This document shows, piece by piece, positions 40,501-43,478 of a stretch of DNA of 43,740 nt. This stretch comes from an uncultured Cocleimonas sp. GTDB lineage: Bacteria; Pseudomonadota; Gammaproteobacteria; Thiotrichales; Thiotrichaceae. The notes beneath the pieces are model-generated. The model saw nothing but the letters and a program-made list of their open reading frames with translations. It was not told the DNA's origin and made no database searches. Position numbers and translations under genes: made by a program. The DNA lies in contig NZ_CANLZW010000040.1 of assembly GCF_947495625.1 (NCBI RefSeq), positions 1-43,740 of the forward strand, read 5' to 3'. Each line of letters begins with the position of its first letter. Positions within the stretch are counted from its first letter, which is position 1.

Positions 40501-41329
40501 CGTAGAAGCATTCCCCAAAGGCGCAACTGCGGGTACTGCCTTGCACGAAATTTACGAGAATATCGACTTCACCCAGCCACTGGAAGAGCAAACAGAAACC
40601 TTCGATAGAATCCTCGAAAAATACAGCTTCGAAGAAAAGCACAAAGAAGCCGCGATGCGTTTGATTGCAGAAAGCATTGAGGCTGAACTGCATCAGAATC
40701 AAATGTCAGCAGAAACTGAAACCCTGTCACTTAATAAGCTCAGTAAAGCGCAACGTCTGGATGAGATGGAATTCTATCTGCCGCTCGAACGACTCGATAT
40801 CGAAAAGCTAAAACAAACCTTATTTCAGCATTTACCGGTAGATGACGAATCCGACACAACACCGAAGTGGCGTCAAATCCGTGAAGCCGTAGACACCTTG
40901 TATTTCGATGAAGTCGAAGGCTATCTAAAAGGCTTCATCGACCTGATTTTCGAATACAATGGCAAATACTATCTGGCTGATTACAAATCTAATACGCTTG
41001 AAGACTATGCGCCCGAAAAGCTCTTCACGCCAATGGCTGAAGCGCATTACTATCTGCAATACCTCATCTATTGCTTGGCGTTGCATCGCTATTTAGAACA
41101 GCGTTTACCCGGCTATCAATGGGAAACTCATTTCGGTGGCGCGTATTACCTGTTTATTCGTGGCATGACAAAAACCGCGCAAGTAGATCAGGACTCACAA
41201 AAAAGTGCCCCAAAGTGGGGGGGGGTGTTTTACCATAAACCCAGTCTCGAATTGATCAATGCATTGGATGGATTGTTTATGCGTTTACCTAGCCACAACA
41301 TACAGTCCGAAACCCAGGGGGCAAGCTAA
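37586..41329 (+). CDS. recB: Exodeoxyribonuclease V beta subunit RecB
   Basis: A 1247-residue helicase-nuclease subunit of RecBCD, which resects double-strand breaks for RecA. UvrD-like helicase motifs: Walker A [11 protein letters not shown] (motif I), [28 protein letters not shown] (II), [20 protein letters not shown] (III), [15 protein letters not shown] (V), [13 protein letters not shown] (VI). The nuclease motif [20 protein letters not shown] with DYKSN follows. Length near E. coli RecB (1180). The start is TTG at 37586 with AAGG five bases upstream; ATG 37595 is an alternative. A loop near residue 1207 carries an extra [10 protein letters not shown] encoded by the dispersed repeat. Glycine-lysine repeats [11 protein letters not shown] lie near residue 515. 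Confidence 0.95.
   Translation: [1247 protein letters not shown]
41199..41230 (+). repeat. G-run repeat copy, in-frame inside recB
   Basis: AAAAAAGTGCCCCAAAG, then T, then nine G and TG. It encodes KSAPKWGGV. The left arm GCCCC pairs with four G of the run, so it keeps a hairpin. E. coli RecB (from memory) has about 8 residues between the RG and the following GIY motif where this RecB has about 19. Confidence 0.8.
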
Positions 41330-41511
41330 TGTCAGAGAAGCTCTCAATATTTGGCGCTTTGGAAGATCCGAAAAAAGAAATCGATGTTAAAATTCAGATA
41401 GGTTTAGAACAGGCAAAAGCAGGACTGGGTTTTTCTATGGATCAACAGTTGATAGAAAAGTTGAAACAAGAACTTCAAGGCATAATTGAAGCTAGGCAGA
41501 AGAAAGAATAA
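41329..41511 (+). CDS. Unknown 60-residue protein coupled between recB and recD
   Basis: A 60-residue protein beginning MSEKLSIFGALEDPKKEID and ending EARQKKE. The centre VKIQIGLEQAKAGLGFSM and LIEKLKQELQGII suggest two helices; the C-terminal half resembles short antitoxin-like helical proteins, but this is only an impression. Its ATG overlaps the recB stop by one base (TAATG) with AGGGGG upstream, and its stop TAA shares one base with the recD ATG, so all three are translationally coupled. No homologue is known to me between recB and recD in E. coli. It could modulate the enzyme or be a remnant. Confidence 0.75.
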   Translation: MSEKLSIFGALEDPKKEIDVKIQIGLEQAKAGLGFSMDQQLIEKLKQELQGIIEARQKKE

Positions 41512-43478
41512 TGCAAACACCTTCAGATCAAATCGATTTATTTTCTACTGCCTCTACTGATCCCAATCAGTCTGAGACTATATTATCTGGCTCTAGTTTA
41601 TCTGATTCTCATGAATCTCATTCCCCAGTCACAGAAGAATACGAAGCACTCGACAAGCAACTTGCTGAACTCATGCAAGAGCTAAACAGCTCGAAAGATA
41701 AAGACAGTGACCTACAAGCAGCGCAAAACGAAGTCATCAAACGCTGTACTTTAGAGATCAGCAAACACACCCGTGAAGGTCAAATTGCAATTCCGGTATC
41801 AGAACAAGATCAAGCCGTATTACTGCAAACCAATGTCGGCGGCGAAGCAGGGGATTACAAACCACTGATAATCGATCAGGGTTATTTGTACCTTCGACGA
41901 TACTGGCAATACCAAAATCAACTGGCGAAGCAAATACGCGCGCGTATGACGGTTGATGAAGATATTGATTCCAATACCAAGTCGGAAAATCAGGATAGCT
42001 GGGCACAACAACGGCTGGATGAATTGTTTTCTGATGATAAAGGTAGTGCAAACAAAGAAAGTGCAAACGAAAAAGAGTCAGAAGAAATCAATTGGCAACG
42101 CCGCGCCGTAGAACTGGCATTAAAACATCAATTCCTAATCGTCTCAGGTGGCCCGGGCACGGGTAAAACAACCACGATAACGCGTTTATTGGCTTTATTG
42201 ATTGAACAGCATTTGTCACCATCAGATGAAATAACTGCCCCAAAGGTGGGGGGTGGCTTAACAAATAGTTTCAAGGTTTTATTAGCCGCGCCAACCGGTA
42301 AAGCGGCGATTCGTATGCTCGATTCGATTCGCGATGCGCAAGCAGGTCTGGGTTTGACAGAAGATGCAGCGGCACTCATGCCCAGCGAAGCCAGTACCAT
42401 TCACAAACTACTTGGCTACCAGCACGGCAGTGTTAATTTCAAACACAATCGTAATAACCCACTGAATGCCGATGTGGTATTGGTGGATGAAGCCTCGATG
42501 ATCGATATCGCGCTCATGTCTAAACTTGTCGAAGCCGTTCCCGCTCATGCGAAACTGATTCTAATCGGCGATAAAGATCAACTCTCATCCGTAGAAACAG
42601 GCTCGGTATTTGCCGATATGTGTAGCGGATTAGAAGAGGATAAAAGCGAGCACTTGGTGACGTTAAAGAAAAACTGGCGCTTCTCCAAAGACAGCGACAT
42701 TGGACAAAGCGCGATAGCCGCCAATCAAGGTGATAGCAGGAAATTACTCAGCTTACTCAAAGATAGTAATAGTGTGAATTGTAAACTTATCGCACCAGAT
42801 ACATTAAGAGATGCTGAACTCATCAAACCGTGGCGAACGTATATCGACGTTATCAATAATCCAGACGCTAGCTACGATGAAATCTTTCAGGCATTCAATC
42901 AATACCGAGTGTTATGTGCTTTACGCCGCGGACCAAATGGCAGCGTGAATATGAGCAGTCGCATCGAAACCTCACTGGCAAAACAAAACCAGATACACTT
43001 CCGCAAAAAGTTCTCGAACAATAACCAAAGCTGGTATCACGGCCGTCCCATTATGATTACCCAAAACAGTTATGGCAAAGGGCTGTTTAATGGCGATACC
43101 GGAATCGCTCTGATTCGAGATGGGGAAGTGAAAGTGTATTTTCCTTCAGCTGACGATGGGCTTTCTACAGCTGATGGCTCCTCTTCTACAGCTGATGTCT
43201 CTCATGCATACAAAAGTTTCTCCCCAGTGCGACTCCCCGCACACGAAACCACATGGGCGATGACCATCCACAAAAGCCAGGGCTCAGAATTCAATCAAGT
43301 GGTTTTAATCTTGCCGCACGAAGAAATGCCACTGCTAACAAGACAATTAATATATACCGGAATCACGCGTGCGAAAGAGCAAGTAAGTATTGTCGCGAGT
43401 GAAGGTGTATTGGTGACTGGGGTTAAGGCTGAGGTGGTTAAGGCGACTCGAATAGAGCAGATGTTAAAAAGTGCCTAG
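41511..43478 (+). CDS. recD: Exodeoxyribonuclease V alpha subunit RecD
   Basis: A 655-residue 5'-3' helicase subunit of RecBCD. Walker A VSGGPGTGKTTTITRLLALL, motif II VDEASMID, LIGDKDQLSSVETGSVFAD, and the C-terminal motif TIHKSQGSEF with YTGITRAKE; these match E. coli RecD throughout. The N-terminus (about 1-60) is serine-rich and low complexity. Two in-frame expansions appear relative to E. coli: the TAPKVGGG loop encoded by the dispersed repeat (about residue 243) and a short STADG/SSSTAD expansion before the last helicase motifs. The last codons are followed by a remnant of the repeat. No recC is adjacent. Confidence 0.95.
   Translation: MQTPSDQIDLFSTASTDPNQSETILSGSSLSDSHESHSPVTEEYEALDKQLAELMQELNSSKDKDSDLQAAQNEVIKRCTLEISKHTREGQIAIPVSEQDQAVLLQTNVGGEAGDYKPLIIDQGYLYLRRYWQYQNQLAKQIRARMTVDEDIDSNTKSENQDSWAQQRLDELFSDDKGSANKESANEKESEEINWQRRAVELALKHQFLIVSGGPGTGKTTTITRLLALLIEQHLSPSDEITAPKVGGGLTNSFKVLLAAPTGKAAIRMLDSIRDAQAGLGLTEDAAALMPSEASTIHKLLGYQHGSVNFKHNRNNPLNADVVLVDEASMIDIALMSKLVEAVPAHAKLILIGDKDQLSSVETGSVFADMCSGLEEDKSEHLVTLKKNWRFSKDSDIGQSAIAANQGDSRKLLSLLKDSNSVNCKLIAPDTLRDAELIKPWRTYIDVINNPDASYDEIFQAFNQYRVLCALRRGPNGSVNMSSRIETSLAKQNQIHFRKKFSNNNQSWYHGRPIMITQNSYGKGLFNGDTGIALIRDGEVKVYFPSADDGLSTADGSSSTADVSHAYKSFSPVRLPAHETTWAMTIHKSQGSEFNQVVLILPHEEMPLLTRQLIYTGITRAKEQVSIVASEGVLVTGVKAEVVKATRIEQMLKSA
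42234..42260 (+). repeat. G-run repeat copy, in-frame inside recD
   Basis: ACTGCCCCAAAGGTG, then GGGGGTGGCTTA, a diverged copy with GCCCC pairing to the G-run. It encodes TAPKVGGGL in the same frame as the recB copy (SAPKWGGV). It lies in a loop just after the Walker A helix where E. coli RecD (from memory) is about 14 residues shorter. Confidence 0.7.
43151..43203 (+). repeat. Short in-frame repeat in recD
   Basis: TCTACAGCTGATG occurs twice, with a related CAGCTGACGATG before it, encoding STADG and STADV. It extends a loop that in E. coli RecD is short, so it looks like a recent slippage expansion. Confidence 0.75.

Follow-up and report, generated by a model that had tools for sequence, protein, structure and literature searches.

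A window of 43,740 nucleotides, contig 40 of the 4.60-Mb genome of an uncultured Cocleimonas sp. (a genus placed by NCBI in the Thiotrichaceae, Gammaproteobacteria), carries a 32-bp repeat inside recB and again inside recD, and the locus raises the question of what this repeat is and how it came to be read as protein in two subunits of one complex. The repeat consists of an A-tract, a spacer and a AAGTRGGGGGGTG core and occurs genome-wide. It is a real, maintained, dialect-forming and species-specific motif, with striking examples in recB and recD. On balance, we lean towards a DNA-uptake-sequence-like self-recognition motif that would lie outside the two known families. The fuller proposal, a third and independent DNA self-recognition (uptake-sequence) system, found in the Thiotrichaceae, with at least three dialects in the genus and with the recB and recD loops kept through dialect change, would in our judgement have an even chance of being correct. 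The nearest named relative found was Cocleimonas flava (DSM 24830; G003), whose RecB is 94.6% identical to that of the window. Other genomes are referred to by their G numbers, and genes in the sampled stretches were called with a custom codon-usage script, with no standard gene finder.

The copies inside recB and recD

The recB and recD copies (Table 1) share a reading frame and yield SAPKWGGV (41199-41230) and TAPKVGGG (42229-42260), and the A-run side leads on the sense strand in both. Frame and orientation are as claimed in an earlier, sequence-only reading of the window, which had further placed both copies in extra residues. At the motif sites, RecB and RecD are indeed each 11 residues longer than those of SW_2_14, RecD is 15 residues longer than E. 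coli RecD (1w36), and both loops are short in G006 and G014 as well. The claim held less well in G001, which lacks the motif and yet has a RecD loop 1 residue, and a RecB loop 6 residues, shorter than those of the window (counted by eye); loop length alone is therefore no marker of the motif. A model of RecD placed residues 237-252 in coil with predicted local distance difference test (pLDDT) values below 50, between the helix that follows Walker A and the next strand, but the model is weak (mean pLDDT 57.9).

The motif residues were absent from RecB and RecD of SW_2_14, G001, G006, G014 and Opacimonas. Distant homologues with the same residues, which the sequence-only reading had named as a sign of ordinary protein sequence, were looked for, and the homologues compared, including E. 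coli RecD, lacked them. A chance likeness of ordinary protein sequence to the repeat would suit YjeF, QueA and a histidine kinase, in which the motif residues align gapless with homologues. It does not suit the 913 copies genome-wide, the conserved third positions of the core (see below) or the absence of the RecB and RecD motif residues from motif-free relatives; we rejected it on these grounds and consider it next to impossible.

Both copies are present in C. flava. The RecB and RecD loops that carry the motif in the window also carry it in G002, there in the G002 dialect; in G008 the RecD loop contains AAGTGGGGGGGTG and the RecB loop a form with one mismatch. That two subunits were hit by chance, as the earlier reading had allowed, is unlikely, since the motif occupies this pair of loops in G002 and G008 as well, with a different dialect in G002. 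The RecB loop of G007 runs into a 10-N gap immediately behind a repeat that elsewhere in the G007 genome stands ahead of a motif copy, which hints at a motif copy within the gap.

Abundance and maintenance of the motif

The consensus of 194 exact copies from the window's genome and C. flava reads AAAAA, a spacer often with GCC, AAGTRGGGGGGTG and then (A/T)CTTT. Exact cores numbered 913 in the window's genome, 879 in C. flava (260 and 619, both complete totals), 651 in G004, 289 in G008 and 237 in G007, compared to 0-1 per genome for reversed-pattern controls (1 in the window's genome). A profile of the motif, run over 444 kb with reversed sequence as the control, found 123 copies and 0 reversed at 16 bits, and 126 versus 2 reversed at 10 bits. 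Motif density in the sample was about 1 copy per 3.6 kb. The window holds 11 profile copies and 13 core matches at up to two mismatches, versus 0.54 expected. Rfam gave no match in the window at gathering thresholds, and a strict motif pattern gave 0 matches in IMG/VR.

Copies with altered surroundings were also observed. In some copies (C1 43965, 63513 and 106857 and C2 63080 of the window's genome, and L104) an AT-rich palindromic module of greater length, like TAAATTCTATTTACGTTTT...AAAACGTAATATCATTC, takes the place of the A-tract half and abuts the core; the left part differs in C. flava at the same site. A second repeat, like GACCCGAAGGGCGAGG, stands shortly ahead of some motif copies in several species (L085, L096, and C1 54976 and 6993 of the window's genome) and also occurs within the G007 RecB loop (L136).

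Comparison of the window's genome with C. flava indicated that copies stay where they are. Of 64 anchored intergenic copies, 58 were found in the same place and orientation in C. flava, 2 were reversed and 4 were absent (a further 6 were rearranged and 38 unanchored), and all 13 anchored coding copies were present (3 unanchored). With C. flava as the starting point, 62 of 65 such anchored copies were kept, 1 was reversed and 2 were absent (4 rearranged, 40 unanchored), and 13 of 13 anchored coding copies were kept. For control gaps without a copy, the counterpart gap had one in 1 of 83 cases and, in the reverse direction, in 4 of 81. Within 14 coding copies, third codon positions differed between the two genomes at 4 of 62 sites in the core and at 268 of 1210 in the flanks (p = 0.002). 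Intergenic copies differed at 27 of 676 core and 1142 of 4609 flank positions, a comparison that leans to conservation because it holds only pairs at least 60% identical. In many of the alignments examined, the core was intact while the flanks were nearly unalignable. The motif is maintained at the DNA level, in place, including inside genes.

Nine of the 17 coding copies in the sample of the window's genome were compared with solved homologues or relatives. Extra residues were found at the motif in three (RecB, RecD and DNA polymerase II (PolB)) and not in five, of which YjeF, QueA, a histidine kinase and oligopeptidase A were gapless and RlmB differed by one residue; the AmiC copy lies in a variable linker and is unclear in this respect. 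The sequence-only reading had compared the recB and recD copies to the Rickettsia palindromic elements, which insert in frame. A dispersed repeat does stand in frame in both protein loops, but there is no coding palindrome that generally inserts in frame: all three frames and both strands are used and 5 of 9 copies add no residues, so that the motif does not behave as a palindromic insertion adding residues in frame. Rickettsia-type insertion was rejected as a general mechanism for these reasons.

A broader alternative is that transposition spread a miniature mobile repeat, such as a repetitive extragenic palindromic (REP) sequence, a REP doublet (REPIN) or a Rickettsia-type palindromic element, and brought it into genes in frame. 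Such a repeat would account for the high copy number, the inverted pairs, the intragenic copies in repair genes and the extra residues at the RecB, RecD and PolB copies. The consulted part of Di Nocera et al. 2013 (PMC3733652) reports REPs located within genes for replication and repair, among them recBCD; the REPs of two recB genes from Xanthomonas occupy nearly the same position. Y1 transposase matches were present in the window's genome (4) and in the carrier G002 (1), and the copy at C1 55685 of the window's genome, absent in C. flava, corresponds to a 37-nt alignment gap, an insertion in the former or a deletion in the latter. The remaining absent cases examined were, however, unalignable or substitution-like. 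No Y1_Tnp match was found in the carriers C. flava, G004, G007 and G008, whereas the non-carriers G001, G005 and G006 had matches. The hairpin is weak in the window's genome and C. flava and absent in G002 (G-strand mean z -1.6, -2.2 and +0.4, respectively), and GTAG is internal, variable (GTGG) and missing from the G002 form. With five of the nine coding copies not being insertions, and with the empty IMG/VR search, we regard a mobile repeat as quite improbable. Its specific form, a GTAG REP with a REP-associated tyrosine transposase (RAYT), was rejected, as no unpaired GTAG is placed at the end of a palindrome and four carriers had no transposase match.

Placement and dialects

Among 124 copies sampled from the window's genome for location, 107 were intergenic and 17 coding (12 sense, 5 antisense), the latter in all three frames. 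Convergent gaps were richest, with 0.73 (window's genome) and 0.78 (C. flava) copies per gap versus 0.23-0.44 elsewhere; per kb, convergent gaps held 2.99 and 2.84 copies and divergent gaps the fewest, 0.88 and 0.98. All 8 close pairs in each genome were made up of oppositely oriented copies, and the order G strand - then + was seen in 8 of them in the window's genome and in 7 in C. flava. Uptake sequences, too, are enriched between genes and form inverted pairs.

The richness of convergent gaps would also be expected of a family of intrinsic transcription terminators, and several copies do form a GC hairpin followed by a T-run (15599-15630, 21370-21401). In tandem gaps, however, the T-run lay on the transcript strand in just 18 of 52 cases in the window's genome and 20 of 54 in C. 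flava, copies also occur between divergent genes and inside genes, and the G002 form does not fold. A terminator family was rejected on the misfit of orientation in tandem gaps and is, in our estimate, very improbable; a secondary terminator role for the inverted pairs is possible.

The motif differs among species of the genus. The G007 form is AA(GT or GG)TGGGGGGTGTACTTTT, the G004 and G008 forms are like AAAAGTRGGGGGGTGTC, and the G002 form is AAAATATRTAAAAAACAGGGGGGATGGGT. G002 contains 657 exact GGGGGGATGGGT and 0 AAGTRGGGGGGTG; GGGGGGATGGGT had 0 matches in the window's genome and in the 7 further genomes of the genus that were searched, and 1 each in 3 of 4 outgroups. The six species sampled, two of them represented by just 6 and 9 copies, have a common layout consisting of an A-tract, a spacer with an A-rich end and a G6 core. 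Copies in the hundreds to thousands, and species dialects with a shared inner core, are also properties of uptake sequences.

In 260 kb of G002, 89 copies were found, and 0 in reversed sequence; the density is overstated because most contigs were picked for carrying copies (L157 was picked for recB). Eight of these copies are coding, RecB and RecD among them. Three C. flava coding copies have an orthologue in the G002 sample, and the RecB and RecD copies are coding there too while the third is not. Between C. flava and G002, the element lay in both 3' flanks in 3 of 40 reciprocal best hits (odds ratio 7.5, p = 0.055, with too few orthologues), and the comparison of the window's genome with G002 comprised 16 pairs. 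Two G002-dialect copies at L271 4024-4106 stand 51 bp, or 17 codons, apart in the same open reading frame (ORF) and orientation, and a tandem-like repeat, CAGAGGACAGAGGACAGA, follows several G002 motif copies (L157, L206-L227).

Neither G001 (120 kb searched) nor G005 (100 kb) gave a dialect by k-mer and G-run; the search in G006 covered 16 kb, too short to judge. G001 has 2 relic-like copies in its 120-kb sample and 3 exact cores genome-wide, and these few copies, together with its long RecB and RecD loops, would fit a past loss of the motif. The evidence on G009-G012 is one BLAST search only, which gave 7 matches to the motif in G011 and 0 in G009, G010 and G012.

Table 1. Motif copies, core matches and recombination genes located in the window.
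Feature	Coordinates	Strand	Remarks
recB, 1247 aa	37586..41329	+	TIGR00609, 923.8 bits (NCBIfam)
Motif copy inside recB	41199..41230	+	Near RecB C-terminus; encodes SAPKWGGV; present in C. flava
recD, 655 aa	41511..43478	+	TIGR01447, 461.7 bits (NCBIfam)
Motif copy inside recD	42229..42260	+	Encodes ITAPKVGGGL, between Walker A helix and next strand
Intergenic copy	6757..6788	+	
Intergenic copy	7811..7842	+	
Intergenic copy	14669..14700	+	
Intergenic copy, strong hairpin and T-run	15599..15630	-	
Inverted pair, left half	21370..21401	-	Pair kept in C. flava
Inverted pair, right half	21412..21443	+	
Intergenic copy	25809..25840	+	No aligned copy in C. flava; motif-start-like A-tract nearby there
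Intergenic copy	29626..29657	+	
Copy on antisense strand of rlmB	32854..32885	+	
One-mismatch core, sense strand of RNase R gene	34326..34338	-	Outside the 11 profile copies
Two-mismatch core just past recD	43651..43663	+	Outside the 11 profile copies

Other features of the window were noted. A 300-nt direct repeat, 74% identical (18820-19119 and 19694-19993), spans two small ORFs and is possibly a gene duplication. One 866-aa ORF (15654-18254) matches both GbcA (oxygenase) and GbcB (reductase) of glycine betaine monooxygenase, each below the curated cut-off, and is an apparent GbcA/GbcB fusion. A 15-nt tandem repeat (10342-10450) lies within a 638-aa ORF.

Uptake, intracellular sites and known systems

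In the uptake model that we lean towards, a surface receptor would prefer motif-bearing DNA, the preferred DNA would be recombined into the genome, and biased transfer would spread and preserve copies where they are harmless, namely in intergenic space, protein loops and nearly matching codons. The reader of the motif would most likely be an uptake receptor, and the driver transformation. What the sequences themselves show is an abundant and sharply conserved motif, constrained as DNA inside genes, kept in position, built on one layout in several dialects and present in the RecB and RecD loops in two of these; its regular spacing, its density in convergent gaps and its inverted close pairs were also counted in favour of uptake. 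Sequence-discriminating uptake is known only from Neisseriaceae and Pasteurellaceae according to the accessible part of PMC12616744, which also describes uptake signal sequences (USS) of up to 32 nt with AT-rich parts. Excerpts of other sources describe dialects, inverted pairs and frequent intergenic sites (PMC3630211), a location in terminators (PMC13020248) and a bias to recombination and repair genes (3R) (PMC2734928). No report of the motif was found among the matches listed, by titles and the starts of abstracts, in open-licence literature on Cocleimonas, uptake sequences and Thiotrichaceae uptake signals. ComEC, the one component of the competence machinery that was searched for, was above the cut-off in the carriers C. 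flava, G002, G007 and G008 and in the window's genome. GspH-type pilins occurred in carriers and non-carriers alike and gave no separation.

Several results weigh against uptake. ComEC was also found in the motif-free G001, G005 and G006 and fell below the cut-off in the carrier G004, so that competence does not separate carriers from non-carriers. In a RecB tree the carriers form no clade, G006 grouping with G002 and G001 with G007; the bootstrap values of 80 and 91% are below the tool's star level, and with this pattern and support gains and losses are not separable. Non-syntenic gaps held 10 copies in 33 gaps (1.65 per kb) and syntenic gaps 66 in 167 (1.77 per kb), a similarity that counts against uptake because uptake sequences should be scarce in newly acquired DNA. 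The available text of PMC1939737 gives uptake sequences no orientation bias, a share of 35-65% in ORFs and a spacing less even than compaction sites need. The motif departs from this description in all three respects: its coding share of 17 in 124 is lower, its orientation is biased, and its spacing is more even than a same-gap placement null, with coefficients of variation of 0.78 and 0.73 versus 1.07 and 1.09 (1 and 0 of 500 nulls as low).

The bias of orientation was assessed at two scales. In C. flava, 170 of 234 cores (73%) lay on the leading strand, which was set post hoc by contig-level GC skew with the data already seen, and so did 104 of 159 other G6 runs (65%); the bias is mostly compositional, perhaps not wholly. 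Over about 60 kb of the window's genome (C2 80769-139869, L080-L082), all 25 copies point in one direction regardless of genes, as do 22 of 22 in the matching end stretch of C. flava (C2 1.19-1.24 Mb, L120-L122), and GC skew alone is no explanation for these one-way runs. Copy orientation in C. flava did not correlate with local GC skew in 20-kb stretches (rho 0.09). A run of '+' only among the C. flava C1 matches listed was dropped as an indication of strand bias, being probably a product of the listing.

This polarity, together with the even spacing, would be explained if the motif were the site of an intracellular protein in replication, segregation or recombination, comparable to Chi, to the FtsK-orienting polar sequences (KOPS) or to a nucleoid protein site. 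The leading-strand bias with its local run of 25 of 25, the G-rich polar core and the placement in recB and recD all fit such a site. Much of the bias is shown by other G6 runs as well, however, and close inverted pairs are ill-suited to a polar guide. The canonical KOPS, GGGNAGGG, occurs separately from the motif, is rarer and is more skewed (27 of 33); KOPS was rejected as the identity of the motif, which lacks this octamer. A change of dialect inside one genus is not expected of FtsK or RecC sites, and the carrier G004 gave no RecB match beyond UvrD-like proteins, though its genome is 89% complete. These points make an intracellular site rather unlikely in our view.

If the motif does serve uptake, it would add another case of sequence-specific uptake, in a marine group of bacteria that includes a named strain (C. 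flava DSM 24830) and in which the origin of the motif, its dialect change and its choice of sites could be tested directly. It would further help account for the recurrence of repeats in recombination genes, a point that Di Nocera et al. (PMC3733652) leave open for REPs in the part of their text consulted. Even with an intracellular reader, a switch of dialect within the genus that keeps the same RecB and RecD loops would be unexpected.

Chi and KOPS are G-rich and leading-strand biased, as is the motif, which is unlike them in being an extended 32 bp, mostly intergenic, divided into dialects within a genus and arranged in inverted pairs. With the GTAG REPs and REPINs and their RAYT, as far as the accounts consulted go, the motif shares a size of 20-40 bp, intergenic location, high copy number, inverted pairs and intragenic copies in recBCD genes; it differs in that its GTAG is internal and unconserved, its hairpin is unconserved and four carriers have no transposase match. 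The Rickettsia palindromic elements, as described in part, are likewise repeat DNA read in frame within genes, whereas copies of the motif use either strand and each of the three frames, most of its tested coding copies are not insertions, and its G002 form is unfolded.

The uptake sequences of the two known families differ from the motif in sequence and in strand bias. Compared to the Pasteurellaceae USS (Hin-USS AAGTGCGGT), the motif has a different core (AAGTRGGGGGGTG or GGGGGGATGGGT), an A-tract upstream, a strand bias and fewer ORF copies, and compared to the Neisseriaceae DNA uptake sequences (DUS; GCCGTCTGAA and dialects, receptor ComP) it is unrelated in sequence, strand-biased and without an assigned ComP-like receptor. 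In the excerpted descriptions of these families, it nevertheless resembles the USS in combining a short core with AT-rich segments over about 32 nt, in hundreds of copies with dialects and inverted pairs (PMC12616744), and it shares with the DUS the dialects among relatives, the inverted pairs near gene ends and the presence in recombination and repair genes, towards which a bias of the DUS is reported.

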